Virus record (IMG/VR): IMGVR_UViG_3300032224_001604
Coordinates: 1-22,431 of that record
DNA: 22,431 nt
Origin: a virus
Reading direction: 5' to 3' (one strand)
Position 1 is the stretch's first letter, and the number at the start of each line of letters is the position of its first letter. The position numbers and the translations under genes were made by a program. The notes under the pieces are model-generated. The model had not been told where the DNA came from. It was given only the letters and a program-made list of their open reading frames with translations, and did no database searches. Positions 672-22,431 of this stretch are shown piece by piece.

Positions 672-892
672 AATATAGAAAACACGGCCGCAGATGGCTC
701 GCCGAAGTTTGGGATTCTCATTTGAAGAAAATGTCCGGCATTGATCGGACTGTTCCTCTTTTAGAAGATCAATACGTAGAAATTAATCAATGGTGCATCG
801 ATGTGCTTAAATATCATGCTCGAACAGCTTATCACGTGTTTGAATTTAAAACAAAAAAGGATTTGGAATGGTTTCTTTTAAGGTGGTCTTAG
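662..892 (+). CDS. Small phage protein of unknown function
   Basis: A 76-residue protein overlaps its upstream neighbour by 10 bases and the radical SAM gene downstream by 25 bases. The first in-frame start is TTG at 662; the first ATG is at 731 and would give a protein 23 residues shorter. No clear ribosome binding site precedes either start, so the start is uncertain. The product has a basic N-terminal part, an EDQYVEINQWCIDVL stretch and ends KTKKDLEWFLLRWS. A C-terminal phenylalanine-rich element closing with an LRWS-like tail is, from memory, common in small proteins of T4-like marine phages, but I cannot name a family. It is the only small gene beside the radical SAM cassette. It lacks an obvious leader/core split with Cys, Ser or Thr repeats, so nothing marks it as a peptide substrate. 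Confidence 0.65.
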   Translation: MDIEYRKHGRRWLAEVWDSHLKKMSGIDRTVPLLEDQYVEINQWCIDVLKYHARTAYHVFEFKTKKDLEWFLLRWS

Positions 893-2181
893 AACGATTG
901 TACCGTAAGTACAAAAGAAAATATATTAAACAGATGAATTCTATGACTAAAAATACCTTATGCGCAGTACCTTGGATGCATCTTAACTTTGAACCTAATG
1001 GCAAAGTTGTTCCTTGCTGTTTAACTAGTCATCACAACTATTTTGCCGGTGATCTTAATAAACAAAGTATTGAAGAAATATGGAACAGCAAAAACATGAA
1101 AGATCTGCGGTTACAGTTTCTTGCTGGTGAAGAACCAAAGATTTGCGCTACATGTTTTGATCGTGAAAAAGTAACAGGAGAAAGCGGTCGTTATTATCAA
1201 AATAAAGAATTCTCAAATGTTATAAAAATTATTCCAGAGATAACAGAACCCGATGGATCTGTACCTGATATGAAATTAATGTATTGGGATTTCCGTTTTA
1301 GTAATCTATGTAACTATAAATGTCGAAGTTGCGGTCCTCGCTATAGTTCATCATGGGTTCCTGATTATAAGAAGCTAGGCTGGACTATTGAAGATGATGC
1401 TAAAGTTACAAACATTCAATCGGTAGAAGGTGTAACTAACTATGATTTCTTAAAAGATCAAGTACAGCACGTACAGAAGGTATATTTCGCCGGCGGTGAA
1501 CCCTTGCTTATGCCCGAGCATTGGCAGACCTTAGACCTGCTAGTTGAAAATAAAAGATTTGATGTTAAAATATCTTATAACACAAACGCATCAAGTTGGA
1601 CCTACGGTGGAAAAAATGCTCTAGACTATTGGCGTCAATGGGAGCCTTGGAAGATCGAAGTGTGGCCTAGTTTAGATGAAATCGGTGAACGTGCCGAGCT
1701 TATTAGAGCTGGAACAGTTTGGAAAAAGGTTGAAGCGAATTTAAAAGAACTAATCACACTCGACAACATTACAATTCGTCCCGGCATGACTATTGGTGCA
1801 TGGAATGTACGTAGACTTCCGGTTATTATCGATTATCTAGTAGATATCGGTGTGGTCAGTGCTAAACATAATTATCAGAACTTTTTTATCAACTTGCTAC
1901 AACACCCAGCACATTATCATGTATCTATATTACCCGACGCATATAGACAAGAAACTATCAGTGAATTACGTGCATGGATTAGCAAGCATAATAAAAAATA
2001 CAACACTACCGTTGATCATGCATTTACGCATATCATACATGAACTTGAAAAACCGTTTGACCTACAGGCAGCTAAAAAGTTTATATGGAATACTGAAACA
2101 ATAGACGGCATTAGAGATGAAAACTTATTTACAGTCATACCTGAAATGTTGGTAGTACGTGACGCGGTAAATAATCCATGA
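868..2181 (+). CDS. Radical SAM protein with N-terminal twitch/SPASM-like cysteine region
   Basis: This 437-residue protein should cleave S-adenosylmethionine at a [4Fe-4S] cluster to start radical chemistry. The cluster motif CX3CX2C is at C148, C152 and C155 (NLCNYKCRSCGP). The SAM-contact GGE motif follows at about 209-211 (YFAGGEPLL), and SLDEIGERAELIR near 268-280 resembles the later strand of the barrel. Before the barrel, residues 32-96 hold a second cysteine set (C32, C50, C51, C93, C96) in the context PWMHLNFEPNGKVVPCCLT and ICATCFDRE. This is typical of SPASM/twitch domains that hold auxiliary clusters, here placed N-terminally as in 'twitch domain-containing radical SAM' proteins. 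Start: ATG 868 has AAGGA at 857-861 with a 6-base gap; ATGs at 934 and 943 lack this. The stop overlaps the next start as ATGA. The family is confident; the substrate is unknown. Confidence 0.9.
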   Translation: MVSFKVVLERLYRKYKRKYIKQMNSMTKNTLCAVPWMHLNFEPNGKVVPCCLTSHHNYFAGDLNKQSIEEIWNSKNMKDLRLQFLAGEEPKICATCFDREKVTGESGRYYQNKEFSNVIKIIPEITEPDGSVPDMKLMYWDFRFSNLCNYKCRSCGPRYSSSWVPDYKKLGWTIEDDAKVTNIQSVEGVTNYDFLKDQVQHVQKVYFAGGEPLLMPEHWQTLDLLVENKRFDVKISYNTNASSWTYGGKNALDYWRQWEPWKIEVWPSLDEIGERAELIRAGTVWKKVEANLKELITLDNITIRPGMTIGAWNVRRLPVIIDYLVDIGVVSAKHNYQNFFINLLQHPAHYHVSILPDAYRQETISELRAWISKHNKKYNTTVDHAFTHIIHELEKPFDLQAAKKFIWNTETIDGIRDENLFTVIPEMLVVRDAVNNP

Positions 2182-3116
2182 AAAAAATTATTAAAATAGA
2201 ACAGCAAGATAATTCACCGATGTTCTTAACGTGGGTTATTAATAATATATGCACTAATGCTTGTTCATATTGCCCATCAGTATTACACGATGGTAAAAAT
2301 CATCACTATAACTGGGAGAAGGCTAGAGAATTTTTTAAGATACTATTTCAAAGATACCCAAATATACATTGCAGTGTCAGTGGCGGCGAACCAAGTGTCA
2401 GTCCATTCTTACCCGAAATTGCTAAAATATTCCATGAAGCTAATCATACACTAGGACTAACTAGCAATGCCGCTAAACCAGTAGATTATTGGGATAATAT
2501 TTCTCCATATTTAAATTATATTTGTTTTTCTTATCATCCTGAATTCCCTGATAAAAAATTTGTTGAGAAAGTAAGTACCGCAGGCAATCATACATTTGTT
2601 ACTGCTAGAGTAATGATGTACCCTAGCATGTGGGATCATTGCGTAGAAATGTATAATCAACTGAAAGAATTATCTCATATATTTGTAGAACCAGTTAGAA
2701 TATTAGATTGGGGTGGCTTGGATAAATTTGCCTTTAAATATACCGATGAGCAATTACAATTTTTTATTGATAATGCTAGAATACCTCGAATCTTAGGTCA
2801 TTTAACACATGTAAAATCTCCTATTATCACTCCAACATTTTATCTTGATGATGGTACGATAGATAGTAAACCAAACACTGTAGATTATATAAATGCTGGC
2901 ATGACTAATTTTTCAGGTTACAGTTGCGAAATTGGTTTGAAAGCATTGTTTATTAATTATAATGGAGATGTATTTTTAGGCAACTGTTTAATCAACGGTG
3001 CTATTGGTAATATCAACAGTCCCGAAAACATTAGGTGGCCAGATGCTCCGGTAATATGTAATAAAGACCTATGTCATTGCACTAGCGATGTGAACATTAA
3101 TAAGAGAATGTTATGA
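2178..3116 (+). CDS. Second radical SAM protein with C-terminal auxiliary cysteines
   Basis: A 312-residue radical SAM enzyme. The CX3CX2C cluster motif is at C25, C29 and C32 (NICTNACSYCPS), and the SAM-binding GGEP is at 69-72 (CSVSGGEPSVSPF). The C-terminal part has five more cysteines (C250, C270, C294, C299, C301) around INYNGDVFLGNC and CNKDLCHC, the look of a shortened SPASM/twitch domain able to hold an extra Fe-S cluster. It differs clearly from the upstream radical SAM gene in size and domain order, so it is not a recent duplicate. It begins inside the stop of the upstream gene (ATGA, 4-base overlap) and its own stop overlaps the next start in the same way, so the four genes 868-6218 are probably translationally coupled. 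SPASM enzymes often modify peptides, but here that is inference only. Confidence 0.9.
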   Translation: MKKIIKIEQQDNSPMFLTWVINNICTNACSYCPSVLHDGKNHHYNWEKAREFFKILFQRYPNIHCSVSGGEPSVSPFLPEIAKIFHEANHTLGLTSNAAKPVDYWDNISPYLNYICFSYHPEFPDKKFVEKVSTAGNHTFVTARVMMYPSMWDHCVEMYNQLKELSHIFVEPVRILDWGGLDKFAFKYTDEQLQFFIDNARIPRILGHLTHVKSPIITPTFYLDDGTIDSKPNTVDYINAGMTNFSGYSCEIGLKALFINYNGDVFLGNCLINGAIGNINSPENIRWPDAPVICNKDLCHCTSDVNINKRML

Positions 3117-4159
3117 AGATAGCACAATTTCGATTTGAATTAGAGGACAGATCTCCGCTAATCTTAACCTACAATTTACAAGATAATAGTCTAACTCCCA
3201 AATGGATAGATGTTGTTAACAAACGCAAACTAGAAACTAACCAGTCTACTCTGAAACAATTCTTAACAGGCAATTCTTTTCCAACAGAACCGTTAGAATT
3301 AAAAATACAAAATAAGACCGCAGATGATTTGCCTAAGTTAATGGAAAAACTTAATCAAATTATTTCTAACATTAACAAATATTATGACCAGCCGTTGCCG
3401 GTGTTTACTAGTACGACAGAAATAGATCATGATATTTTAAATTATCTACATAGTGAATTTGAACGGTACGGTGAAAGACACGCTGAAATGTCAAATCATT
3501 ATATGGACCCTAGGCCTAATATGGATCCAAAAGTTTGGCCTGGTATAGGATTTAAAAAAGATTTTCATCAACTGTGGTTAGATTTAAATCAATGGATCCA
3601 CATAACTGAATCAGCGATAGATACTGACGAATTTCCAAATTTTAGTTGCCTAATACAGTACACGCCTTTTGAAGAACAAGGTGCACCTATAGAAGAAGAA
3701 GATAAACTATTTTTATCTAATACACCTGCATGGGGAGGATTATACTTAGGATATAATACACTAGGTAAAGATTATGTTCATACATATTTTGATAATGATC
3801 AACGAGTAATTGCTAATGACCAAGTCAAAGTTCAAAAGTATCTAAGTTCCGAAGTATGGTTAAACTTTACAAGAGATTCTGTATATCAATCGCATCATTA
3901 CTCACCGAATTTAGGATTTTGGCAATGGTACAAGTCGTTGCCTCAGGATCTTCAAGCTAAGATTCCTATTCATAGTTTAAACGAACTTGCTCTTGGTCGA
4001 TACTATCTAGGCACTGTTAGTTTTGATCAAGCATTTTTAAATTTCCATCCAGTGTATGAAGACTGGTTAGAGTCAGGTAGCGACCTTCGCAGGAGATGGA
4101 ATTCTGAAGTTTTTTCTAAAATTGTAAAGGTAACTGGAATTAAAATAATCAATGAATGA
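3113..4159 (+). CDS. Unrecognised protein of the radical SAM cassette
   Basis: A 348-residue protein that I cannot place in a family. The N-terminus (MKIAQFRFELEDRSPLILTY) is beta-like. A helical stretch DDLPKLMEKLNQIISNINKYY follows near residues 70-90, then YGERHAEMSNHY around 119-130 and FKKDFHQLWLDLNQWIH around 147-163. The second half is rich in aromatic residues and has LGRYYLGTVSFDQAFLNFHP near 310-329. It contains one cysteine, so it is unlikely to be another Fe-S enzyme; scattered His and Asp/Glu residues could bind metal but form no motif I know. No signal peptide or membrane segment is visible. It starts in an ATGA overlap with the second radical SAM gene, and its end overlaps the hydroxylase-fusion gene by 8 bases. 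The conserved-looking operon position suggests a partner, substrate-binding or substrate protein for its neighbours. Confidence 0.85.
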   Translation: MKIAQFRFELEDRSPLILTYNLQDNSLTPKWIDVVNKRKLETNQSTLKQFLTGNSFPTEPLELKIQNKTADDLPKLMEKLNQIISNINKYYDQPLPVFTSTTEIDHDILNYLHSEFERYGERHAEMSNHYMDPRPNMDPKVWPGIGFKKDFHQLWLDLNQWIHITESAIDTDEFPNFSCLIQYTPFEEQGAPIEEEDKLFLSNTPAWGGLYLGYNTLGKDYVHTYFDNDQRVIANDQVKVQKYLSSEVWLNFTRDSVYQSHHYSPNLGFWQWYKSLPQDLQAKIPIHSLNELALGRYYLGTVSFDQAFLNFHPVYEDWLESGSDLRRRWNSEVFSKIVKVTGIKIINE

Positions 4160-6218
4160 AATATTAGAAAAATTTATTAAAGAATCAGAGAGCAATCAAT
4201 GGGCTCCTCACTTGCCAATTCCTAAAGATATATATCATTCAACATGGCCGTGGGCACCTGTTGAGTTTAAGGCTAACTTTAAAAAAATGCATCAAGAATG
4301 TATCGACAATGATCACTTGTTTGTGGGACATAGACAGAAGGATCGACAGTTTAGCTACAATCACGAAGGCTGGGCCGCTTTAACATTGCACGGTATTAGT
4401 CCTACCGCCACTGAAAATTATGAACAGTACGGGTTTAAATCTATTAGTGAAGCTGACTATCACTGGACTGAAGTTTGTGATCTATTTCCAACTTGTGCAG
4501 AATTTTTAAAAAGCCTAGAGTATTATGAATACGACCGTGTGCGCATCATGAAATTATCAGCTGGCGGCTATATAATGCCTCATGTAGACGGTCCTGGTAG
4601 AATATTCGGACCGTTGAATATCGCAATTAATAATCCCGAAGGTTGCGATTTTTATTTTCGCAAATGGGGTAAGGTTCCATTTAAACAAGGCACGGGTAAT
4701 TTCTTAGATATAGGCAATGAACACATAGTTTGGAATAACAGCAATGAAGATCGCTATCATTTTATTGTACACGGATCGCCATCGCACTCTCTACGAGAGT
4801 ATGTGTTTAAACAATTAACCACAAGACTACAAGATAATACATCATCGGATAAAAGAATCCAAGTTGCTTATGGAGTGTATAATCAACTAGATCAAATTAA
4901 TAACAAAGAAATGTACATCAGAGCCAAGAGCACTACGTTGTTTTATCTTGAAAGATTAAATGTTAAAATGATAGTTAATGGAGAAGAACCCATGTCTATC
5001 ATCTGCAAGGATGATGTAGGATCTATACTAAGAGAAGCAGTTGACAACAACTTTGACTATTGTGTTGTGCAATCTGCTGGATGTCAAATTAGAAACTTGT
5101 CGTTTCATGAAGATTTATTAGAGTTTATAAGTGAAAACAACTTTGGTGTTGCCGGTCACCCTCTATGGTGGACTGATGGTAGATGGTTAGAATTACATAA
5201 GCAGTTTTTTATAGTTAATCTTAAAGCATACAAAGAAGTAGGATGTCCGGACTTTGGCCCAGAAACTCGTAAAAAAACACCGGTACCTGTGCTTGAACGT
5301 AGCGAAGAAAACTTCCATCATGACTATACACCGCTTTGGATTAAACCTACTGGAAAACATGCCTCATATAATGAACTACCGCAAGGTTGGATGTTATTAT
5401 CTGCTATGTTCGATAGTGGACATTCTGTAATCACACTGAGCGAAAAAATTCGATTAGGAAAATTTTATATATATCCTGACCACGAAACAACACAGTTTGT
5501 CAACAGTATTAGTACATTGACTACATACCCTGATCAAAACTGGAATCAGAACAAATGGATAGAAGATTGTAAATTAGTTAAGGATCAAATATGGTTGTTT
5601 AATTCCGAGTATATGGGAATTCCAAACACAAGTGTATATGATATAGCTGTATCAACTGCTAGCGGTTTTAAAATATTTGATTTATTTAAAAAACCTCGAC
5701 TTGCAGATAATGCAAAAATTATCATTTATGATTTTAATCCTAAAAGTCTAGATTGGTACAGGCATTTTTATACCTGGCATAACGAAGATCTATTAGAATG
5801 TATACGAAGCTTTCCTGATAGGGATAATTTTACATGGGCAGGACATTCTGATCCAGTATATAGAGAAAACCAAGGATTCAATGACGGATTAAAAACCGTA
5901 TATGATTATTTTGGAAAAGACAACTTTGCTAAATTTTGGAAAGAATTCAAAGACACTACTGTAGAATTTATACAATTAGACTTATATAAAAATCCAGAAC
6001 ATTTGGCTTTTTTAGTTACCGGCGATGGTAAGAAATTTATCAATTTGACTAATATTTTTAGCACTGATGCTACACAAGTTATTTTTGGCAATATTGAATG
6101 TATGGTAGCCCAAACGAGATGTTTAGGATATGTATATACAGTAGACCCAACTGTGGATATTACCATGTTTGACTTTTGGGGACGCCATAAACGTGGCGAG
6201 GTTAGAGACCTATTATGA
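4152..6218 (+). CDS. Asp/Asn-hydroxylase-like dioxygenase fused to GT-like and methyltransferase-like regions
   Basis: A 688-residue multidomain protein. Residues about 1-220 match the aspartyl/asparaginyl beta-hydroxylase cupin pattern: HVDG with H144 and D146, then GPLNIAINNPEGCDFYF, then FLDIGNEHIVWNNS with H191 and the likely 2-oxoglutarate-contacting R201 in EDRYHFIVHG. Such enzymes use Fe(II), O2 and 2-oxoglutarate to hydroxylate side chains. Residues about 235-500 look like a nucleotide-sugar glycosyltransferase-type fold (REAVDNNFDYCVVQSAGCQI, then EFISENNFGVAGHPLWW), which is a weaker call. Residues about 500-688 resemble a SAM-dependent methyltransferase (AKIIIYDFNPKSLDWY, VEFIQLDLYKNP, KFINLTNIFSTDA), also tentative. 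The gene overlaps the previous one by 8 bases and is last in the run; only 2 bases separate its stop from the next promoter. The dioxygenase call is fairly firm; the other two need structure comparison. Confidence 0.85.
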   Translation: MNEILEKFIKESESNQWAPHLPIPKDIYHSTWPWAPVEFKANFKKMHQECIDNDHLFVGHRQKDRQFSYNHEGWAALTLHGISPTATENYEQYGFKSISEADYHWTEVCDLFPTCAEFLKSLEYYEYDRVRIMKLSAGGYIMPHVDGPGRIFGPLNIAINNPEGCDFYFRKWGKVPFKQGTGNFLDIGNEHIVWNNSNEDRYHFIVHGSPSHSLREYVFKQLTTRLQDNTSSDKRIQVAYGVYNQLDQINNKEMYIRAKSTTLFYLERLNVKMIVNGEEPMSIICKDDVGSILREAVDNNFDYCVVQSAGCQIRNLSFHEDLLEFISENNFGVAGHPLWWTDGRWLELHKQFFIVNLKAYKEVGCPDFGPETRKKTPVPVLERSEENFHHDYTPLWIKPTGKHASYNELPQGWMLLSAMFDSGHSVITLSEKIRLGKFYIYPDHETTQFVNSISTLTTYPDQNWNQNKWIEDCKLVKDQIWLFNSEYMGIPNTSVYDIAVSTASGFKIFDLFKKPRLADNAKIIIYDFNPKSLDWYRHFYTWHNEDLLECIRSFPDRDNFTWAGHSDPVYRENQGFNDGLKTVYDYFGKDNFAKFWKEFKDTTVEFIQLDLYKNPEHLAFLVTGDGKKFINLTNIFSTDATQVIFGNIECMVAQTRCLGYVYTVDPTVDITMFDFWGRHKRGEVRDLL

Positions 6219-9097: not shown

Positions 9098-9547
9098 ATG
9101 GCAAAATTTTATTCAACAAAACATTACGGACATAACATTGGATTGAGTGCTGTATTTAGACAGCCCAATGCAGATCATTCACATTGTCACCTGCTACACG
9201 GTTATAGTCTAGCATTCACATTCACATTTGGATGTGATACACTAGACAATAAGAATTGGGCTGTGGACTTTGGTGGACTCAAATCTCTCAAAGCATGGTT
9301 GGAAGATCACTTTGATCACAAGCTAGCACTAGATAAAGCAGATCCACACTTAGCCAAATTCCAAGAACTGGAATCATTGGATCTAGCTGAGATCCGTATC
9401 TTCGATGGAGTGGGTGCAGAGAAGTTTGCTGAACATGCGTTTAACTTTGCTGATCAATTGATACGTGAGAAGACTAATAATCGTTGCTATTGCGTAAGGG
9501 TAGAATGTGCAGAACACGGTGCTAACTCGGCTATCTACGAAGGCTAA
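9098..9547 (+). CDS. queD: 6-carboxytetrahydropterin synthase-like protein (QueD/PTPS family)
   Basis: A 149-residue T-fold enzyme of the 6-pyruvoyl-tetrahydropterin synthase/QueD family, which converts dihydroneopterin triphosphate to a tetrahydropterin, the second step toward preQ0 and queuosine or deazaguanine DNA modification. Visible marks: HSHCHLLHGYS at 27-37 with the likely catalytic C30, WAVDFGGLKSLKAWL at 54-68, FDHK with the D73-H74 pair, E108 in GAEKFAEHAF (substrate-binding position), and the VECAEHG C-terminal element. Compared with E. coli QueD, the first zinc ligand (His of SAAH) reads Phe here and HGH reads HGY, so metal binding must use a different histidine set, perhaps H27/H29/H31/H34. 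The length is slightly above that of the 120-residue E. coli enzyme. ATG 9098 follows AGGAG at 9087-9091. No other preQ0 gene is in the window. Confidence 0.85.
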   Translation: MAKFYSTKHYGHNIGLSAVFRQPNADHSHCHLLHGYSLAFTFTFGCDTLDNKNWAVDFGGLKSLKAWLEDHFDHKLALDKADPHLAKFQELESLDLAEIRIFDGVGAEKFAEHAFNFADQLIREKTNNRCYCVRVECAEHGANSAIYEG

Positions 9548-9701
9548 AGATATTTGGCGGCTTTGGGCCAAAGCATTAGGTGAGAAGTCGGGCAGTTCGG
9601 ACGAGGAATCGGACCGAATTGCTTGCATTAGAACGCTAGTTGTGTTAATATACGTTATCACAAACTTTTTTATAATCGCAGGCGTCATAAGGCATTGGTA
9701 A
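9507..9701 (+). CDS. Small single-pass membrane protein between queD and UV endonuclease
   Basis: A 64-residue reading frame starts at GTG 9507 with AAGGG at 9496-9500 six bases upstream. It overlaps the queD end by 41 bases in another frame and stops at TAA 9699-9701, sharing one base with the ATG of the next gene (TAATG), the usual sign of coupled translation. Residues 1-40 are charged (STKAKDIWRLWAKALGEKSG, then SSDEESDR). Residues about 41-61 (CIRTLVVLIYVITNFFIIAG) form one strong transmembrane helix, followed by VIRHW. This suggests a cytoplasmic N-terminal part and a membrane anchor. I do not recognise a family. It is the only explanation I see for the 150-base gap, and no signal speaks against it, but it is short. 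Confidence 0.6.
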   Translation: MQNTVLTRLSTKAKDIWRLWAKALGEKSGSSDEESDRIACIRTLVVLIYVITNFFIIAGVIRHW

Positions 9702-10729
9702 TGGGGAAAATAGGCTTCGCATGTAAATGGATCGATCATGCAGATCAAGTAAACGGCATTGGTAAAAATGACGATGCTAAACAATACAACACCGGTACAA
9801 CCACCGTTCGTTGGTTAAATAATCAATCGAGAGATATAGCAGAGCAGAGACTATGGGACCTAATGGTAGGCAATATCGAGGCGACTCGCAAATTGGTAGA
9901 ACGTGTCAGCACACTTGACCCTAGCCTTAGGATGGTTAGGATTAGTAGTGACATCCTGCCTGTTTATACTCACGCTGACTTTGCTGATTATTGGCGCAAA
10001 CCTGATGTTGTTTCATACGCTGAAACCCACTTTAAGAGAGTGGGTGATATTGCTCGCAGTAGCGGTGTTCGGTTGTCTATGCATCCTGGGCAGTTCACTG
10101 TCTTGGCAAGCGATAACCCAGGGATTGTTGAACGTTCGATCGCAGAATTTGAATACCATACCGACATGGTCCGCTGGATGGGATATGGAAAAACATTCCA
10201 AGATTTTAAGATCAACGTACACATCTCCGGCAAGCAAGGCCCTGAAGGCATTAGACGAGCGTACGAGAAACTAACGCCCGAAGCTCGTAATTGTATTACT
10301 ATTGAAAATGAAGAAAATTCATGGGGATTAAATGACTGTCTTACTATTAGCGATCTCGTTCCTATTGTGCTTGACGTACACCATCATTGGATACGTGAAG
10401 GGGAATATATCCTTCCGACAGACGATCGTGTTAGGCGTGTCGTTGACAGTTGGCGTGGTCTGCGCCCTACTATGCATTATTCAGTTTCTCGTGAAGATTA
10501 TCTCGTGGGCCATGACAGACTTACCGCACCTGTTCATGCCCAACTCCTTCTAGATGGCTACAAGAAACAAAAACTAAGGGCACACAGTGACTTTTATTGG
10601 AATCAAAAAACAAACGAATGGGTAATAACTTTTCTAAACCAGTTCGACATAATGTGCGAAAGCAAGGGCAAAAACCTCGCCAGCATGGAACTGTACAATC
10701 AAGCCAAAAGCTATCTCGAGAACAACTAA
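9701..10729 (+). CDS. uvsE: UV damage endonuclease, UvdE/UvsE family
   Basis: A 342-residue TIM-barrel endonuclease that nicks DNA 5' to cyclobutane dimers and 6-4 photoproducts, allowing light-independent repair without UvrABC. From ATG 9701 the family marks run in order: GKIGFACKW at the N-terminus, RISSDILPVY at 80-89, RLSMHPGQF at 124-132, INVHISGKQG with H174, ITIENEENSWG near 200-209, LDVHHHW at 224-230, MHYSVSR near 258-264, AHSDFYW at 294-300 and FDIMCESKGKNLA with metal-binding E320. These supply the expected His/Glu/Asp set for three metal ions. The family is usually about 300 residues, so it is full length. A TTG at 9695 is an alternative start, but ATG 9701 fits the TAATG junction. 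The gene is the third in the promoter-8997 operon, an obvious benefit for a sunlit-water phage. Confidence 0.93.
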   Translation: MGKIGFACKWIDHADQVNGIGKNDDAKQYNTGTTTVRWLNNQSRDIAEQRLWDLMVGNIEATRKLVERVSTLDPSLRMVRISSDILPVYTHADFADYWRKPDVVSYAETHFKRVGDIARSSGVRLSMHPGQFTVLASDNPGIVERSIAEFEYHTDMVRWMGYGKTFQDFKINVHISGKQGPEGIRRAYEKLTPEARNCITIENEENSWGLNDCLTISDLVPIVLDVHHHWIREGEYILPTDDRVRRVVDSWRGLRPTMHYSVSREDYLVGHDRLTAPVHAQLLLDGYKKQKLRAHSDFYWNQKTNEWVITFLNQFDIMCESKGKNLASMELYNQAKSYLENN

Positions 10730-12009: not shown

Positions 12010-12333
12010 GTGATTACAATTTCTGACTCAGCAAAAGCAAAAATCAAGGATTTACTCCTTGAAGAAAACAATCCTAAACTAGCGTTACGTACATTTGTAC
12101 AAGGTGGAGGCTGTAGCGGATTTAGCTACGGTTTTACTTTTGACGAAGAAACTAACGAAGACGATTTTGAAATACCGTTAGATCAACACAAAATACTTGT
12201 GGATAGTATGAGTATGACATATCTACAGGGCGCAGAAATAGATTATAAAGAAGATGTCATGGGAAGCCAATTTAGTATAAAGAATCCAAATGCAACAACA
12301 ACATGCGGCTGCGGTAGCAGTTTCGGAGTTTAA
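12010..12333 (+). CDS. A-type Fe-S carrier protein (IscA/ErpA/HesB family)
   Basis: A 107-residue A-type carrier that holds and delivers Fe-S clusters to apoproteins. The three diagnostic cysteines are present: C35 in [10 protein letters not shown] and C99, C101 in [12 protein letters not shown], at the expected distance and with the C-terminal CGCG.SF signature. The start [16 protein letters not shown] matches the family N-terminus, and [16 protein letters not shown] the first strands. Length is typical (about 107-115). It begins with GTG at 12010 after GAGGG, preceded by a late box. Only 2 bases separate its stop from the giant structural gene, so it is expressed with virion genes. In T4-like marine phages such carriers are common near structural genes. 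ErpA and IscA subtypes cannot be separated here. Possible clients include the phage radical SAM enzymes, but timing argues for a late or virion role. Confidence 0.93.
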
Positions 12334-12335
12334 TT

Positions 12336-15300
12336 ATGTCACTACAAGTAATTGATATCGGTATTCAGGGTAATGACGGAACTGGTGACAGTATCCGTGA
12401 ATCTTTCCGTAAGGTAAATGCAAACTTTAATGAGCTCTATGGCATTTTTGGTGCTGGCGGAACTATTAAATTTACAGCACTCGGCGATGCGCCAACTAGC
12501 TATACCGGTAATCAAATTATCATGGCTAATCCTGCAGGTAGTGCCTTAACTGCTAGAACGATCGTTTCGAGCAATTCAGGTTTAACTATCAATGCTAGTG
12601 ATCCTACTAAACTTACCTTAACAGTTAGTAGCCCTAACTTATCAAACGATCCGTTCCCAACATTGGGTAACTTCCTTAATGCTAACAGTTTGACTCTTGG
12701 TAAATTAGCAGATCCAAGTGCGGCCTTAGTAACAGCATTTAATAGCGCATATCAAAGTTTAGGTATTACTACGACCTTAGATCAACTACCAGTTACTAAA
12801 GGTTATGCTGATAAGAATTATCTTCAAGCTACATCTACAACTAGTAATGGCATAACTTCAGTCGCTCTAACTAGTGCAGTTAAACCTCGAACACAACCTA
12901 CATTACCGCAAACTGGTGATCCTGATTATGATCCAACACTGACAAGTAACTATCTAAGCACTGAAGCGATGCAACGTAAAGATGTTGTATATCGAGGTGG
13001 TGACACTATGACTGGTGTGTTAAATCTCAGTGATCATCCAGCACCGCTATCTGGTTCAGGTGTTGTTAATAGCACAAACGATCTCCAGGCAGCTTCAAAA
13101 TATTATGTTGACAACAATACCTATTACAGTGGTGTTAATCTATTTGTATCGGCTACTAAAGGTGACGATACACAAAAGAATACTCCAATAGGACGCGAAG
13201 GACGTTATTGGCAATATGCTTATAAAACTGTAGGTGCCGCTTGCTTACAAGCACAGAATTTAATCAATCTTGCTAATTTTGAACCCGGTCCATACAAGCA
13301 ACGCATTGCCTACACAGTCGGCCCAAGCCAATACAGTAGTCAAATACAAAGTATAACACTAAGCGGTGGCAATAGTGCTGATACTGGATATACCGGTGCG
13401 GCCAATTTATTAGAATTAAACAAGGCATTTATTCAACAAGAAACTGTTGCTTATCTTAATAAAAAATATGTAAACAGTTTTACCTTTAGTAAGACACGCT
13501 GGGCATCAATCATTGAAAATATGATTAGTGCAGTCGGATACGACCTTGTATTAGGTACTACACATAATGTAACTACTCAAGCTAGTCAATTATTTGGAAC
13601 ATACAATAGTGATATCATCAATAATCAATTGACACAAATTATTGATGCTATTAATCAAGCCAAGACTCAAATTTTAAATTATTCATATAGCACTGCTTCA
13701 TTACAAACTTATATTGGTACTGTAATTGATGCTATCTGTTATGATTTAATATTTGGTAGCAACTATCAAAGTCTAAGAGTAGCACAGGCATTTTCAAATG
13801 CTGGAACAAGTCTAAGTACAACAGAAATCGCATCAGCGATTACTAATCTCGGTTCTTCTATTGTTGCAATCAGTGAAGTTGCAACATCGCCTACAATGAT
13901 AGCTACTGTTAACAGTTTAGTAACAACTATAAAGGCAGTCATACAAGCAGGATCAACGATCACACTTTCATGGCCTGCTCTTTCATCAACTGTGATAGGA
14001 CAAACTAGTGCTAGAGATTTATTAAAGAACAATATTGGTTTTATACAAGCTGAAATTATTGCCTACTTATTGGCTAACTATCCATCATTAAGTTATAGCA
14101 AAACTACTTGCCAGCGAGATGTAAAATACATCGTTGAAGCGTTGATTTACGATTTAATGTACGGTGGTAATAGCCAAAGTGCATATGCTGGTTTGAGATA
14201 CTGGATCGGTAATGTTTTACAAATACAAGCTACAGAAAAAACAGCAACCGTTGCCGCAATTAATTATATCAATACATTAGTTCAGGCAATCGTTACTAAT
14301 ACACTACCTGTATTAATATATCAAACTAGCGTTTCACAATATATTAATTCTACATTAACTGGTAACAATACTGCTACTGCTACATTCTATAGCGGAAGTA
14401 CATCTAGTACAACATTAACTGTAACTACCGGTACTGTTTTAATCAGTGTTGGTCAGGTAATTACAGGAACAGGTTTCACTAATGGGCAGAAAGTAGTAGC
14501 GACTAGTATCAATGGAATTTACACTACTATCACATTAAGTGCTGTACCAAATGCAACTCCGAGCGGTACATTCACATTTACTAGTCCCGTACTAAGTTCT
14601 TTAAGCACAAACATTTCTACAATTTCATCTATAGTAAACAGTGTAAGCACACCGAGTCCGAGCATTACACTACCTACTACTAGCGCGGCAGCGAGTATTT
14701 TAACAACTGCTAGAACAGCAGTACTAGCACAAAAGACTGCTCTAAGTTCAGCTTCAGTAACGTACATTAATAATACATATCCTGTTCTTAATGACAGCGG
14801 AACAAATGCTAGTATTACTAGTTTATTCAACATAGCGACCGGTTTGTTGACCAACGGAATCGCTACAAGAACAACTCCAACATACGGAACACCAAGTGCA
14901 TTAACTGTTGCTTACGGTCATGCACGTGATGCGCTGTTAGCTAACATTACTTTTATTGCGGCAGAAACAAATGCCTGGATTAATTCTCAGTATTCTGGAT
15001 TAACTTATAATACAGCAACTAATACTAGAGATATAACTTATATTGTAGAAGCTGTCATACACGACCTAGTATATGGCGGTAACAGAGCAACAACATTAGC
15101 ATCTCAACAATTCTGGATAAATGGTGTTTCTCAGATAGAATCTAGTCTAACTCAAGCTATATTGGCGGCTGCGGTACAGCATGTTCAACAAATTGCCGCT
15201 CAGATTATTGGTAATACAACAGTTAGTCCATTATATCAAGGTGTCATTACACAAACTAAAAATAGTTCGTGGGCAGACGGCGGTGCCGCATCTACTACAA

Positions 15301-18300
15301 TATTCACGTTATTCAATCAAATACAAGATGTTATTGTAAACAATACAACATACAGTATTACTGCTCCAGTATTAACAAGTTATAGCAATGTTACTCAAAA
15401 TGCCAGAACTATTATGGAGTCTAACAAGACTACCATTTCAGCATATGTTAACACATACCTAACTACTACATATCCGGGCGGTTTTACCTATAATCAATCT
15501 ACTTGTTATCGAGACGTTGGTAATATCATCGATGCAATGGTTATCGATTTATTAACTGGTGGAACTTATCAAAGTATTAATGCAGGTCTAAGTTATTATA
15601 GTAATACAAGTGCTAAGAGTGTTGCTATTGGTACTCAATATAGTCAAACAGTAGATGGTATACAGTTTGCTAGAGACCTAGCACTTCAAGTATTAAATCA
15701 AACTACTGCACAACGTTATCAAACTTTAACTACACAAGTTGTCAGTGGTAGTTATACAGCCAGTGCTGGTGCTAAAACAACATTTACAACTAACATGAAT
15801 ACTATAATTAGTATCATACAGTTAGGTTACGGCGCGGCACCGACACCGAGTTATGGTACTGGTCTTTATACTTTAACTATTAGCAACGGTGGTAATAGTT
15901 CTGTTGATCAAGGTACTGCTGGCAATGTACACATTATACCTGCTAAGGTACTAGTAGGCGGAAGCTCGGGTGCAAATGGTTTAATTGTAAGCTATACTGC
16001 TAACACCGGAACCGGTGTTGATACTATCGTATTACGTTATAGCAAACCTGGTTTCTTCCAATATGTGCCAACTACTGCAACAGGTACTAGCGGAACTAAT
16101 ATAATCACAGTAGCTAGCTTAACATATACAAATATCTATACAAGTAGCATTGCTATTGGAATGGGTGTGTCTGGCGGTAACATTCCTTTAGGAACATATG
16201 TTACTGGTATTAACGGAACTACCATCACATTGAGTGCTAGCCTAACTGGTGCTCTTTCTTCAACCTCAGTCATATTTGGTGAACAAATGGATTTTGGTGA
16301 AACTGTTAAAAATCTTAACATCACCATTCGTGTTGAAAGCGGTATTTACTATGAAGATTATCCAATTAAATTACCGGCTAACGTATCCATCAGCGGTGAT
16401 GAATTCCGTAGAACAATTATCCGTCCGTTGGATCGTGTAAGCCAAAGTCCATGGCGTAGTATATTCTTTTATCGTGATTCAATTATTGACGGAATACAAA
16501 CTGGTCTAATCGATTTTACTACTGATTATTCTAGTACATTAACATCTTCATTAACTATATCAGCACCGACTGGAAATATTACAGCTACGTTGGCATCTGG
16601 TCAGGCTCCTGCAAGTTGGGTTGGATTGGTTATTATGACTGCTACTAGTGATACAGGAATAGTCGGAAAGGCTGTCATTACAAGTGTTGCTGGTAATATA
16701 TTAAATTGTACAGTAGTATATCCGTTCCCAAGTGCAACTACATTTACTACAGGTAACTGGCACGTATATGGAACTAAAAACTATGGACGCCATTACTTAG
16801 TTGATCCGTTAGATATCAATTCAACTCCGTTGAACAACAAATTAATTGACGTGTTCATGTGTAACGATGCTACACGTATTACTGGCATTACATTCCAAGG
16901 TCACGGCGGATTCGCTATGGTGCTTGATCCAGAAGGTCAAATTAAAACTAAGTCACCATATGGACAAGTATGTACATCATTTAGTCAATCAACTAATGCT
17001 AAACGTTTTGCAGGTGGGCAGTTTGTTGATGGATTTACAGGACGACTATTTGGTACTATCACTAATGTCGCTAGTGCTAACGGGGTAGCTGGTATTACAG
17101 TTACAGTTACTGGTAGTGTAAACAGTGGCCTTGATATCCGTGCTCCGCAAACGCCTTGCGTATTTTATATTGCAGGCAATCGTTATCAAGTTGATGATGT
17201 TCCAACTTATGACAGTGGAACATACACAGCAACACTAACACTCGATGTTTCTACACCATATGATCCAAGTACCTTATACAGTGCATCATTGATAACTAGT
17301 TCAAATTATCCAAATGCATCCATTGGTGGTATTATCGATGCGGTTACTTACGATCTAGTAACTGGTTCTAATTATCAAACTAATAAAATGGCATTAGCAT
17401 GGTTGCAACCTGCTAATGCTGTTATTGGTATTAAACAATTATATGTCTTATCCGCTATTAATAAAGCTAGAGACATTATGAATTCAAATATTACTAATAC
17501 TACAAGTAAGAGTAAAATTACAGCTAGTATTGCTAATCTTACTAATGTTATCACTAACGGTATAGGTGTATTACCAAGTTCAACATTCCCGGTATATACG
17601 GGTTCAGGTGCAACATCAACTAACGTAGCAAATGCTGTAACTATTCTACAGGCTAATAAAGCATTTATACAAGCAGAAATTACTGCATGGTTTGCTAGTA
17701 ATTTTATTACAAAATCAATTGCCACCTATAGTGCAACGAAGACTCAGAAAGATATCGGTTATGCAGTTGATGCCTTAACATATGACTTGTTATATGGCGG
17801 GAACTCAGCATCTTATGATGGAGCAAGTACCTACTACTTAGGCGGAAGTTCAAATATCTCAGGCCAAGAAACATATTATATGTCTATGTTTGGTCGACTA
17901 AGCACTATTATACAACAAGTTGTGCAGAATCAAACTGTTAGTGTTTCAGCAGGTAATATCGTTAGTCAAAATAAAGTTGCGGCTACTGCGGCAACAAGTA
18001 CAGAAGCAACTACTCTAGCAGGCCTAGTAAGTGTTCACATTGATTATCTATATGAAGGTATATTTAATAACACAGTCCAGGCTACTATTACTTCAGGATC
18101 AAATGTATTAACTAATGTCCCTTATAACCCATTAATTAACGTCGGCTCAACTATTCCAGCTGGTACTTACTTTGCCTCTGGGGCAACTGTTACAAGTATA
18201 GCTAGTTATTTGTCAAGCGGACAAATTACAGTTAATAACAATGCGGCAGCATCTGGAACATACGTTCCATTATCATTTACTCGAAGTGATGCTACATCAG

Positions 18301-21300
18301 TCGTTCGTACAGTTTTAACATTGCCAACTGATACAAATTACAACCAAGTTAAATCTGACAGGACTACGATTGTTACAGCAAAATCTGCAACACAGACATC
18401 AATAACTAATTATCTTAACGCTGGTGCTAGCTTGCCAATTAACATTGAAATGGGTGGTAACCGTTCAATGTTAGCAAATGACTTCGCTATGATTAATGAC
18501 TTAGGTTATGCCATTGTTGTAACCAACGGTGCAGCCTCCGAGCAAGTTTCAACATTCTCATACTACTGTCATACACACTTCTGGTCAATTAATGGTGGCC
18601 AGATACGTGCTGTAGCCAGTTCAAATGCACACGGTAATTACGGATTACGTGCAACAGGTTTCGATGTAACAGAATTGCCAGACTCAGTTGTACTAGCTAA
18701 CGACATGGTACAAACTGCTAAAATTTACAAACAAGGTATATTCGCAGGCCAAATGGCTCCAACTGCTACTACCCAAGCGTTGTCCGTTTACATTGTCGGT
18801 TATAACTACATTCCATATAATGTTAGCGAATTAGAAATTGACCACACACTATCGGGCGGTAATATTACACGTTATTTGATCGGTAGCGTTGCACATACAA
18901 CAACCACTGTCAATGGACAAAACGTTTTACAATTAAACTTGAGTACAAGCGGTACTAATGCCACATCAACAAACGGTTTAGCATATGCATTATATGATGG
19001 CCAGTTGATCACTATACGTATATTACAGAACATTAAATTCTTAAACATTGATAATGTAAAACCAACTCGCCCATCGACTGCTGTCCAGTACAGTGATAAT
19101 CTAGCAGATATCTATCGTGTTATTGCATATGGTTTGACAGAATCAACCGGCGAGCAACTACCAGCCAATACTGCTATCCTAGGCACTGATACTTCTTTCG
19201 GTTTTTATCTGTTTACCACAGATGGTGGCAATATTTCAAATGCTGATCCTAACTATGATGCTAGCGCATCAGTAGTTACTTCATTAGCTACATTTACTGG
19301 AAACATTAGCGGAACTACATTAACGGTTTCAAGCGGATTAGTAGGAACTATTAGTATTGGTCAAGGAGTTACTGGCAATGGAATTACCGCAGGTACTTAT
19401 ATTACCGCAGGTAGTGGATCTAGTTGGACTGTTAATCAAAGTATAAGCGCAACAGGAAGCATTACAATTACTGCTTCATCAGGAAGTGTTACAAGTACAA
19501 CACTAACAATTAATTCATTCGTTGCTGGTACTGTGTTTACAACTGCCAGCACCTTAGTCGGTGCTTATATCGGTGGTGTTGGATTCACTGCACAAACAGT
19601 AACAGCGGTGGCTAACCCTACTGGATCAATATTTGTTCTTACATTAAGTGCGGTACCAACTATTATCCCTGGTGGCACCGTTACATTCTCTAATAAGACA
19701 CAAGGTCGCAATGTAGGCGATAATAAGATTTCAGTATTGACTATTGCTAATCAATCAATAATTTCGCAAGTTAACAAAGGACTTTACCTATTTGGTTGGG
19801 CAGGTAGGGTACACCGCGTAGTAAGTTATACTGCGCCAACTACTATTGCTACTGGTTCATTCAGCACAGGTAGTACATCAAGTTATACGCTAGTAGTTAC
19901 TGGTGTTGCTGGTACTATCTCAAATGGACAAGTTGTAATTGGAACTGGATTTAACAGTACACAATATGTTTCAGCAGTAAGCCTAGTTGGGTCAACTGCT
20001 ACTGTTACTCTAAACAACTATCCATCAGTTCAGCCTTCTGGAACTATTACATTCGGTACTGTTCAAAATAGTTATTTGACCATTGATCCAAATCCAGTAT
20101 ATAATAATTCTGCTGATGGAACTGCTATCAATAGCATGACTTATTCTAGTACTGCGAGTGGTCCTACAGGAACTAGCTACAGTCTAGTAACATTTACAAT
20201 TCCATATAGAACAGCATATCCGGCAGTTGATAGTTATATTACTATATCAGGACAAAGTACTAGCACATATAATGGCGCATATCAAATTGCGGCTATAGGT
20301 AGTTCTACTCTAGTCACAGTATCAAGCAATGCTACATTATCAGTAGGTATGGTTGTTACTACTGTGGCTGCAGGAGCATATGTTCCTTCATATTGTATTA
20401 TTCAATCACTGATTGGTACTACACAGTTTACAATCAGTCCAGCCGCTTGGTTACCTGCAGGTACAAGTATTAGTGCTACCGCAGTTGCAACTGTTCAAGG
20501 TGTAACAATTACTAGTGGTGGTACAGGTTATACAACGGCACCGATAATAACTTTTAGTGGCGGTGGTGCTATTACTCAAGCACAAGCTAGTTGTACGATT
20601 GTCAACGGTAGTATTGCTACTGTAACAGTTACAAGCCCCGGTTATGGATACACTAGCCTTCCTACTATTTCATTAAGTCAGATATTAGGCGGAGCACAAT
20701 TAACAGCGGTACTGACATCTATCGTTCAAACTAGTGCTACTGTAACTACTGGTATCAATACTAACACCATGAGCTTGGTATATCCTACTGCTCCTGGAAC
20801 TGCTGGAACTGCGAGTGCATCATTAAACTCAGTTGCGTCAATGACTGGTTCTACTATTACTGTAACTACTGGCGTATTAACTGTAGGTACACTAGCTTCT
20901 GGAACTATCGCAGTAGGTATGGTGTTAACCGGTGGTACTATAGGTAGTAACGTTTATATCACTGCTAATATTAGTGGTAGTGGTAACGGATCAACATGGC
21001 AAACTAACACAACTGTTGCTCAAACTATCACCACTATTACTGGTACTGCTAACTTATTAACAGTTAGTAAAACAACCAATATGTATGTTGGTGCACCGAT
21101 CGTCTTTACCGGTACTACTGCCAATCCAGTGTTTGGAAATGTAGTCAGCGGAACAACATATTATATTAGTAGAATCATAGCCGCAACACAGCAAATTGGA
21201 ATTAGTTCTACGCAAAGTACTACAGACTTTACCCTAACCACAGTAGCTTCTGGTAGCATGGCATACTATTCACCAAGCTATGTTTATGGAACTAGCTATA

Positions 21301-22431
21301 CTAATAGTGGAACAGGTTTAACTGTAACAACAGTAAGCTCAGGAACATACGCTGGTACTTATAGCGTAACATATACATTTAGTTCAACTACTGCTCCGAC
21401 TACTGGTGTTTATTATTATGTAAGCGGTAATACTAATCCATTGTACAACGGTTATACAATTTGTTCAGCAAGTAGCACAACTAGCATTACATTAAATTAT
21501 CCATACAATCCTGGAACTTATAGTAATGCAACAACTACAACTATTACGCGAGAGGCTACATCAGGTGCTAGTACAACGTTAGGTATTTCAACTCCGTTTA
21601 GTTTAAGCAATGCATTTAATCCTCGTCTAGGTTATCCAGGAGCAGAAGCCGCACAGATTACTACACGTATTTCAACAACTCGTGTTACAGGACATGACTT
21701 CTTGAATATCGGCACTGGTAGCTACACAACTACCAACTGGCCAACAGTTATCTATGGTAATCCATCGCAGGCAGCTAATCAAAGTCAAGAAGTATTAGAA
21801 GAAGGTGTAGGTCGTGTGTTCTATGTGACCACTGATCAAAATGGTATTTTCCGTGTAGGACGTTTCTTCAGCGTTGACCAGGGTACCGGTAGTGTAACAT
21901 TTAGTGCGTCTATTGCATTGAGTAACCTAGACGGTCTAGGATTTAAACGTGGTGTAGTTGTTGCTGAGTTCTCAACAGATTCAGCAATGACTAACAATGC
22001 CGCTGATACAGTACCAGTACAAAGTGCAATCCGTGGATTTGTTGATCGTAGATTAGGGTTGGATTACGGTGGCAATCCGATTGCAAGTACTAATTTAATC
22101 GGTCCAGGTTACCTAGCACTTAGTGGTTCATTGGCTATGAAGGGCAACCTAAATATGGCCTTATACACAATTAACAACTTGGCTGCTCCAAGTATTAGCT
22201 CCGATGCAACTAATAAGTTATATGTTGATACGCAAGTTGCAAATACTAACTCAGTCAATAAACTTAAAGACGTTGCGGCTACATTATCCTCAACTGTTGC
22301 TAATACTGACTTCTTAGTGTATGACAGTGCTGTTAGCAACACAGGTGGAACTACTGGTGGTTGGAGAAACGTAAGTATTCCAACAGGTGATGTTAATACA
22401 ACATTCAATGCAGGCGCTGGTACATTAACAA
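12336..22431 (+). CDS. Giant fibre/baseplate-type structural protein, 3' end cut by window
   Basis: One reading frame stays open from ATG 12336 (GGAG at 12325-12328) to the window end, 3365 complete codons without stop. Frame checks at landmarks throughout agree. The N-terminus QGNDGTGDSIRESFRKVNAN, then NFNELYGIF, is the start typical of T4-like marine phage fibre/baseplate proteins. Next comes a gp37-like strand GGDTMTGVLNL at about 221, then seven AxxYDLxYGGN helical repeats (402-1816). A pectin-lyase/beta-helix-like section follows at about 1325-1364 and 1520-1570 (RVESGIYYEDYPIKLPANVS; FQGHGGFAMVLDPEG). Many Thr/Ser/Gly-rich beta repeats fill 1950-3090. A C-terminal part has GHDFLNIGTG (3118) and NGIFRVGRFFSVDQGTG, then new fibre strands (LAMKGNLNMALYTINNL). 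Probably a long host-contact fibre or baseplate protein. No enzymatic residues can be assigned. Confidence 0.88.
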   Translation, partial: MSLQVIDIGIQGNDGTGDSIRESFRKVNANFNELYGIFGAGGTIKFTALGDAPTSYTGNQIIMANPAGSALTARTIVSSNSGLTINASDPTKLTLTVSSPNLSNDPFPTLGNFLNANSLTLGKLADPSAALVTAFNSAYQSLGITTTLDQLPVTKGYADKNYLQATSTTSNGITSVALTSAVKPRTQPTLPQTGDPDYDPTLTSNYLSTEAMQRKDVVYRGGDTMTGVLNLSDHPAPLSGSGVVNSTNDLQAASKYYVDNNTYYSGVNLFVSATKGDDTQKNTPIGREGRYWQYAYKTVGAACLQAQNLINLANFEPGPYKQRIAYTVGPSQYSSQIQSITLSGGNSADTGYTGAANLLELNKAFIQQETVAYLNKKYVNSFTFSKTRWASIIENMISAVGYDLVLGTTHNVTTQASQLFGTYNSDIINNQLTQIIDAINQAKTQILNYSYSTASLQTYIGTVIDAICYDLIFGSNYQSLRVAQAFSNAGTSLSTTEIASAITNLGSSIVAISEVATSPTMIATVNSLVTTIKAVIQAGSTITLSWPALSSTVIGQTSARDLLKNNIGFIQAEIIAYLLANYPSLSYSKTTCQRDVKYIVEALIYDLMYGGNSQSAYAGLRYWIGNVLQIQATEKTATVAAINYINTLVQAIVTNTLPVLIYQTSVSQYINSTLTGNNTATATFYSGSTSSTTLTVTTGTVLISVGQVITGTGFTNGQKVVATSINGIYTTITLSAVPNATPSGTFTFTSPVLSSLSTNISTISSIVNSVSTPSPSITLPTTSAAASILTTARTAVLAQKTALSSASVTYINNTYPVLNDSGTNASITSLFNIATGLLTNGIATRTTPTYGTPSALTVAYGHARDALLANITFIAAETNAWINSQYSGLTYNTATNTRDITYIVEAVIHDLVYGGNRATTLASQQFWINGVSQIESSLTQAILAAAVQHVQQIAAQIIGNTTVSPLYQGVITQTKNSSWADGGAASTTIFTLFNQIQDVIVNNTTYSITAPVLTSYSNVTQNARTIMESNKTTISAYVNTYLTTTYPGGFTYNQSTCYRDVGNIIDAMVIDLLTGGTYQSINAGLSYYSNTSAKSVAIGTQYSQTVDGIQFARDLALQVLNQTTAQRYQTLTTQVVSGSYTASAGAKTTFTTNMNTIISIIQLGYGAAPTPSYGTGLYTLTISNGGNSSVDQGTAGNVHIIPAKVLVGGSSGANGLIVSYTANTGTGVDTIVLRYSKPGFFQYVPTTATGTSGTNIITVASLTYTNIYTSSIAIGMGVSGGNIPLGTYVTGINGTTITLSASLTGALSSTSVIFGEQMDFGETVKNLNITIRVESGIYYEDYPIKLPANVSISGDEFRRTIIRPLDRVSQSPWRSIFFYRDSIIDGIQTGLIDFTTDYSSTLTSSLTISAPTGNITATLASGQAPASWVGLVIMTATSDTGIVGKAVITSVAGNILNCTVVYPFPSATTFTTGNWHVYGTKNYGRHYLVDPLDINSTPLNNKLIDVFMCNDATRITGITFQGHGGFAMVLDPEGQIKTKSPYGQVCTSFSQSTNAKRFAGGQFVDGFTGRLFGTITNVASANGVAGITVTVTGSVNSGLDIRAPQTPCVFYIAGNRYQVDDVPTYDSGTYTATLTLDVSTPYDPSTLYSASLITSSNYPNASIGGIIDAVTYDLVTGSNYQTNKMALAWLQPANAVIGIKQLYVLSAINKARDIMNSNITNTTSKSKITASIANLTNVITNGIGVLPSSTFPVYTGSGATSTNVANAVTILQANKAFIQAEITAWFASNFITKSIATYSATKTQKDIGYAVDALTYDLLYGGNSASYDGASTYYLGGSSNISGQETYYMSMFGRLSTIIQQVVQNQTVSVSAGNIVSQNKVAATAATSTEATTLAGLVSVHIDYLYEGIFNNTVQATITSGSNVLTNVPYNPLINVGSTIPAGTYFASGATVTSIASYLSSGQITVNNNAAASGTYVPLSFTRSDATSVVRTVLTLPTDTNYNQVKSDRTTIVTAKSATQTSITNYLNAGASLPINIEMGGNRSMLANDFAMINDLGYAIVVTNGAASEQVSTFSYYCHTHFWSINGGQIRAVASSNAHGNYGLRATGFDVTELPDSVVLANDMVQTAKIYKQGIFAGQMAPTATTQALSVYIVGYNYIPYNVSELEIDHTLSGGNITRYLIGSVAHTTTTVNGQNVLQLNLSTSGTNATSTNGLAYALYDGQLITIRILQNIKFLNIDNVKPTRPSTAVQYSDNLADIYRVIAYGLTESTGEQLPANTAILGTDTSFGFYLFTTDGGNISNADPNYDASASVVTSLATFTGNISGTTLTVSSGLVGTISIGQGVTGNGITAGTYITAGSGSSWTVNQSISATGSITITASSGSVTSTTLTINSFVAGTVFTTASTLVGAYIGGVGFTAQTVTAVANPTGSIFVLTLSAVPTIIPGGTVTFSNKTQGRNVGDNKISVLTIANQSIISQVNKGLYLFGWAGRVHRVVSYTAPTTIATGSFSTGSTSSYTLVVTGVAGTISNGQVVIGTGFNSTQYVSAVSLVGSTATVTLNNYPSVQPSGTITFGTVQNSYLTIDPNPVYNNSADGTAINSMTYSSTASGPTGTSYSLVTFTIPYRTAYPAVDSYITISGQSTSTYNGAYQIAAIGSSTLVTVSSNATLSVGMVVTTVAAGAYVPSYCIIQSLIGTTQFTISPAAWLPAGTSISATAVATVQGVTITSGGTGYTTAPIITFSGGGAITQAQASCTIVNGSIATVTVTSPGYGYTSLPTISLSQILGGAQLTAVLTSIVQTSATVTTGINTNTMSLVYPTAPGTAGTASASLNSVASMTGSTITVTTGVLTVGTLASGTIAVGMVLTGGTIGSNVYITANISGSGNGSTWQTNTTVAQTITTITGTANLLTVSKTTNMYVGAPIVFTGTTANPVFGNVVSGTTYYISRIIAATQQIGISSTQSTTDFTLTTVASGSMAYYSPSYVYGTSYTNSGTGLTVTTVSSGTYAGTYSVTYTFSSTTAPTTGVYYYVSGNTNPLYNGYTICSASSTTSITLNYPYNPGTYSNATTTTITREATSGASTTLGISTPFSLSNAFNPRLGYPGAEAAQITTRISTTRVTGHDFLNIGTGSYTTTNWPTVIYGNPSQAANQSQEVLEEGVGRVFYVTTDQNGIFRVGRFFSVDQGTGSVTFSASIALSNLDGLGFKRGVVVAEFSTDSAMTNNAADTVPVQSAIRGFVDRRLGLDYGGNPIASTNLIGPGYLALSGSLAMKGNLNMALYTINNLAAPSISSDATNKLYVDTQVANTNSVNKLKDVAATLSSTVANTDFLVYDSAVSNTGGTTGGWRNVSIPTGDVNTTFNAGAGTLT
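13405..17850 (+). repeat. Seven diverged AxxYDLxxGGNxQ protein repeats
   Basis: Copies are centred at residues 402 (YDLVLGTTHN), 469 (YDLIFGSNYQS), 605 (YDLMYGGNSQS), 909 (HDLVYGGNRAT), 1070 (IDLLTGGTYQS), 1672 (YDLVTGSNYQT) and 1816 (YDLLYGGNSAS). The full unit, about 60 residues, reads L..NK.FIQ.E..AY....Y.....Y....C.RD..YIVDA..YDL.YGGN; copies 2 and 6 keep only its second half. The DNA of the copies has diverged, so recombination between them should be limited. The Tyr-Asp-Leu core with two flanking helices suggests a helical module inserted between beta sections. Confidence 0.8.
14395..21060 (+). repeat. Thr/Gly-rich beta repeats of the giant structural protein
   Basis: A loose 50-60 residue unit reads ..LTV......G.I..G..V.G.G...GT.I....G...T......SGT.TF. 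Clear copies lie near 14395-14580, 16095-16270, 19300-19470, 19490-19690, 19860-20055 and 20835-21060. Examples are TVSSGLVGTISIGQGVTGNG and VVTGVAGTISNGQVVIGTGF. They look like stacked beta-sandwich or fibre-shaft modules. Similarity is at protein level only. Confidence 0.6.
16300..17050 (+). other. Pectin-lyase-like beta-helix section inside the giant protein
   Basis: Residues about 1322-1572 carry IRVESGIYYEDYPIKLPANV and SISGDEFRRTIIRP, then YGRHYLVDP, ITGITFQGHGGFAMVLDPEG and RFAGGQFVDGFTGRLFG. The phrase 'V.SG.Y.E..PI.LP.NVSI.GD...TII.P' is the usual first turn of right-handed parallel beta-helices found in phage depolymerases and tail spikes. It may be a structural stalk only: no catalytic residues can be pointed out. 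Confidence 0.55.

Follow-up and report, generated by a model that had tools for sequence, protein, structure and literature searches.

Analysis of a 22,431-base IMG/VR virus record from an uncultivated tailed phage, hereafter the window, identified four overlapping plus-strand genes, A to D, spanning positions 868-6218, whose homologues occur in conserved association on many other contigs, and the four-gene arrangement is accordingly more than chance. Judged from sequence comparison, the genes appear to constitute a recurring and previously undescribed enzyme set of two radical SAM proteins, a protein family without annotation and a hydroxylase-led multidomain protein. The reading that we favour, with roughly even confidence, is that A-D form one biosynthetic cassette that would make or decorate a carbohydrate during infection.

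Predicted products of the four genes

The open reading frames were confirmed on the plus strand with the overlaps of 4 bases (A/B), 4 bases (B/C) and 8 bases (C/D) described by a first-pass annotation of the same DNA. Gene A (868-2181) encodes an N-terminal-twitch (SPASM-like) radical SAM protein that scores as a member of NCBIfam NF033640, "twitch domain-containing radical SAM" (360.8 bits against a cutoff of 170; 9.7e-108), a family label that carries no function and is silent on B, C and D. Its CX3CX2C motif is placed at residue 148 (C148/C152/C155) and its GGE at residue 209, and the N-terminal cysteines 32/50/51/93/96 fall within a match to the SPASM domain (PF13186; 4.6e-15; residues 32-96). 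A second, different radical SAM protein is encoded by gene B (2178-3116), with a Radical_SAM match (PF04055; 1.3e-7), CX3CX2C at residue 25, GGE at residue 69 and extra C-terminal cysteines at 250/270/294/299/301, so that the motifs and additional cysteines claimed earlier for two distinct radical SAM genes were located in both. Prokaryotic viperin was rejected as an identity for either protein, NF038283 giving 31.9 bits for A and 24.6 bits for B against a cutoff of 180. By tblastn against 50,697 isolate-phage records, the only matches to A were distant radical SAM genes in Vibrio phages, and no match was obtained for B, C or D, nor for the divergent C and D2 proteins of locus L094. One Vibrio phage, K566, holds a cluster of four distant A relatives (L026, 14965-21707), two of which bear no annotation beyond "hypothetical" or "radical SAM" protein.

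Gene C (3113-4159; 348 residues), which had been called unrecognised, has no relative at a meaningful score in Pfam, PHROG, NCBIfam or PDB, and comparison of its alignment with PDB and Pfam likewise returned nothing meaningful. Residues H113, N159, H163, E166, Y214 and G218 do not vary across the 30 phage and cellular rows that were compared, a pattern of the kind that an active or binding site would show.

Gene D (4152-6218) comprises an N-terminal part, D1, and a remainder, D2, which in many relatives are two separate genes encoding D1 of approximately 225-245 aa and D2 of approximately 450-460 aa. D1 (approximately residues 1-228; 4152-4835) is assigned as an AspH-type Fe(II)/2OG hydroxylase by its match to PF05118, Asp_Arg_Hydrox (residues 74-206; 4.9e-7; 30.2 bits against a gathering cutoff of 22.6), and by fold matches to AspH and to a nucleoside-antibiotic hydroxylase, the latter being the nearest. 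The AF2 model of full-length D, built on a thin alignment, was mediocre, and its listed PDB matches were of hydroxylase type. The HxD...H...R set of iron and 2OG residues (H144-x-D146, H191 and R201) agrees with the initial description of a hydroxylase-led protein and is invariant throughout the phage rows and the six cellular ones, owing to which D1 looks catalytically intact.

For D2, neither a Pfam domain nor a PDB relative was found by sequence; the AF2 model of its homologue in locus L025 was confident (pLDDT 93.6, pTM 0.87). Foldseek comparison of this model with PDB gave COLGALT1 as the best match (4.5e-5), together with LH3, mimivirus R699 and other GT-A proteins at a TM of approximately 0.27, and separately gave NNMT-family methyltransferases (3.9e-4 to 5.9e-4), a likeness at the level of fold only. 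From the modelled structure D2 reads as a GT-A glycosyltransferase (approximately residues 236-455; 4857-5516) joined to a class-I SAM methyltransferase (approximately residues 456-688; 5517-6218), with approximate boundaries. The putative methyltransferase half carries G505-F506-K507 and D527, candidates for the glycine loop and for the acidic residue after strand 2 of a Rossmann-type fold, with G505 and D527 conserved. In the GT-A half, H336, H349, Q351, H389 and D391 are conserved, and no DxD was found at the expected strand in the alignment. Some GT-A enzymes are without DxD; nevertheless, owing to the absence of this motif and the weakness of the fold matches, the GT-A half may not be an active glycosyltransferase. 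Extended versions of D2, of about 1170 aa, occur in loci L072, L074, L075 and L077, and the added part in L075 is a B12-binding radical SAM domain.

Downstream of the cassette, the window also contains a QueD-like 6-pyruvoyl-tetrahydropterin synthase gene (9098-9547), unaccompanied in the window by any identified queuosine partner gene, a UvdE UV endonuclease gene (9695-10729), an A-type Fe-S carrier gene (12010-12333; Fe-S_biosyn, 9.2e-21) and an open frame of 3365 aa (12336-22430) with tail-fibre PHROG matches, which runs off the window end.

Recurrence of the cassette in phages and Bdellovibrionota

In IMG/VR, scans for D recovered 24 loci and scans for C recovered 94 stretches, the latter being reduced to 80 loci, and co-occurrence was counted in 30 dereplicated C loci with enough flank. 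Both the hydroxylase D1 and D2 lie within approximately 4.5 kb of C in 27 of these 30 loci, on which ground chance co-location was rejected, and C stands alone in none of them, although the counts are biased by the inclusion of some loci found through D; among the loci found through C alone, D is present in 22 of 25. A was found in 19/30 and B in 16/30, figures to be read with the fragmentary nature of most loci, as a gene missing nearby is not necessarily missing from the genome. The recurrent association of the four genes is thus borne out in IMG/VR.

The commonest full order is A-A'-C-B-D1-D2, the A gene being duplicated (A, A') in many relatives, and the A of the window groups with the single-A loci. 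The order of the window itself recurs with a fused D in L001 and with a split D in L023 and L025, and the order C-D1-D2-B is found in L014-L019. A second locus type (L002-L012, L041-L068) consists of C and a fused D with neither A nor B nearby and mostly precedes genes for an AAA_5 ATPase and for replication; one such locus, on a 239-kb contig, carries two A genes and a carbamoyltransferase gene approximately 65-75 kb away.

The copies in cellular genomes are distant ones. An exact-pattern scan of genome contigs for cellular C was empty, and a profile search of Bdellovibrionota found homologues in 24 of the 291 genomes sampled. D2 was found in 5/129 genomes of one Bdellovibrionota order. Locus L125 encodes a D2-C fusion beside D1, and locus L128 a single protein of 1,072 aa that unites C, D1 and D2; such fusion into single polypeptides is good evidence that the three act together. 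In company with gene-neighbourhood conservation, these fusions lend good support to the first-pass proposal of one modification pathway. Locus L102 carries A, A, D1, D2 and C alongside genes for a GT2 glycosyltransferase, a YdjC deacetylase, a B12 radical SAM protein, a carbamoyltransferase and a glutamine amidotransferase, and L128 has the GT2, carbamoyltransferase and amidotransferase in common with it, the amidotransferases being 60% identical. The possibility of L102 being a prophage was rejected, as its flanks, with TPP-enzyme, PilZ and histidine-kinase-like genes, have a chromosomal look. Other Bdellovibrionota loci (L129-L131, L136, L139) hold C homologues with no A, B or D nearby, and the surroundings of these copies may give a clue to the role of C itself.

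Candidate products and competing explanations

Sugar chemistry is a common theme of the neighbourhoods in phages as well, which makes a glycan- or sugar-modifying pathway the best reading. The cassette neighbours in L074, L075 and L077 include a pair of GT7 transferases, a UDP-glucose dehydrogenase and a carbamoyltransferase. In L078 and L087-L098, paired upstream genes give profile matches to glycogenin, a GT8 enzyme (3.5e-10), and further genes carry a VDADN motif that, on visual inspection and with no backing from databases, looks like that of GT-A enzymes. The balance tilts towards a carbohydrate product because these sugar-nucleotide, glycosyltransferase and carbamoyltransferase genes stand beside a D2 that reads as a glycosyltransferase-methyltransferase. 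From the target list of protein, peptide and glycan offered by the initial annotation, the glycan has consequently gained ground and the ribosomal peptide has lost it. Several observations weigh against a carbohydrate, however: second-type loci carry C and D with no sugar genes close by, the same kinds of enzyme occur in small-molecule pathways too, neither A nor B matches any sugar-acting radical SAM family, and the missing DxD and weak fold matches of the GT-A half of D2 leave its glycosyltransferase activity in doubt.

If the product is a carbohydrate, the reactions, their order, the substrate and the biological role can be outlined as we infer them. D1, as an active-looking Fe(II)/2OG hydroxylase, would put in a hydroxyl; D2 would transfer a sugar and methylate the product; radical steps catalysed by A and B, such as a deoxygenation, an epimerisation or the forming of a bond, would act on the same sugar or on an intermediate linked to a sugar; and C would serve D as a dedicated enzyme partner or as a binding protein. 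The most likely product would be a surface glycan, which could alter receptors or exclude other phages, and the phage's own tail proteins are the second candidate acceptor. A more specific proposal, namely an unprecedented glycan-type modification of host receptors or tail fibres by a hydroxylate-glycosylate-methylate machine working with the radical SAM enzymes and C, common to large aquatic phages and Bdellovibrionota, is put forward tentatively and falls short of being probable.

Modification of a virion protein ranks second, as a serious though unlikely alternative, in which D1 would hydroxylate a side chain of the tail fibre or another structural protein, D2 would glycosylate the hydroxyl and methylate the sugar, A and B would introduce radical changes and C would recognise the substrate. 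The membership of D1 in the protein-hydroxylase AspH family, the presence of COLGALT1 and LH3 among the best PDB fold matches of D2, with a logic resembling that of LH3 with COLGALT1, and the large tail-fibre genes downstream of the cassette in the window all speak for it. A collagen-like substrate was nonetheless rejected, as no GXY repeats occur in the tail fibre or other scanned proteins; moreover, the cellular copies sit amid sugar-modifying genes with no tail fibre to modify, and the nearest fold match of D1 is the nucleoside-antibiotic hydroxylase. That same resemblance, along with the carbamoyltransferase and B12 radical SAM neighbours, would suit a diffusible modified sugar- or nucleoside-like compound acting on the host or on competitors, as would L020 (1-8951) and L080, where a tryptophan halogenase gene, an AMP-binding gene and a number of genes resembling hydroxylases adjoin the cassette and give the look of an extended biosynthetic cluster. 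Such additions are rare, however, the neighbours tested include no recognisable exporter or resistance gene, and the GT8 and GT7 pairs are better suited to glycan assembly, making a small molecule improbable.

SPASM/twitch radical SAM proteins often modify peptides, and A and B do show weak NCBIfam matches to peptide maturases, both points speaking for a ribosomal peptide (RiPP) pathway with A and B as maturases. Every one of these matches is far under its cutoff, and the RiPP pathway is disfavoured, to the extent of being quite improbable, because no short ORF family within approximately 6 kb is common to the different cassette architectures. Modification of a nucleic acid, as in the hypermodified bases of phages, would follow the logic of base J-like modification, in which a 2OG hydroxylase is succeeded by a glycosyltransferase, and the QueD-like gene lies approximately 3 kb downstream of the cassette. 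However, D1 belongs to the Asp_Arg_Hydrox family and not to TET/JBP, QueD forms a separate block present only in window-like loci and the cellular copies sit with sugar genes, so that we consider this explanation scarcely credible.

Relation to known systems and significance

Radical-SAM-rich marine T4-like phages with A-type Fe-S carriers have been described, their radical SAM genes being discussed as Fe-S metabolism (PMC5332604), and the host-recognition islands of pelagimyophages are reported to combine radical SAM cassettes with GT8 transferases and also to include an Asp/Asn hydroxylase, the radical SAM genes being discussed as island content (PMC7029224), a precedent that speaks for the glycan reading. 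The present phage resembles both in being a large aquatic tailed phage with several radical SAM genes, and the former also in its A-type Fe-S carrier, whereas neither report describes the A-D set, C or D2. The collagen hydroxylation-glycosylation system (LH3, COLGALT1) and the collagen-modifying enzymes of mimivirus (PMC9546862) similarly combine a 2OG hydroxylase with a GT-A glycosyltransferase, a likeness of fold only; here an AspH-type hydroxylase stands at the N-terminus, a putative methyltransferase forms part of D2 and no collagen-like substrate was found. Bacterial surface-polysaccharide clusters are comparable in that genes for a GT2 enzyme, a carbamoyltransferase, a glutamine amidotransferase and a deacetylase accompany the cellular C-D1-D2 genes, but the radical SAM/hydroxylase/D2 core would be unusual in such clusters and the neighbours tested include no recognisable flippase or polymerase. 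No description of the A-D set, C or D2 was found in the literature covered, most subscription papers lying outside the search, and the earlier statement that no known phage system has this set stands in the libraries searched.

Radical SAM genes are numerous in uncultivated aquatic phages. Overall, some phage radical SAM genes are hereby tied to a recurring pathway with two unannotated families, C and D2, informative fusions and cellular relatives. Phage radical SAM genes without a known use are in this way turned into a testable enzyme set, which suggests that phage receptors or tail proteins could be altered by way of radical chemistry.
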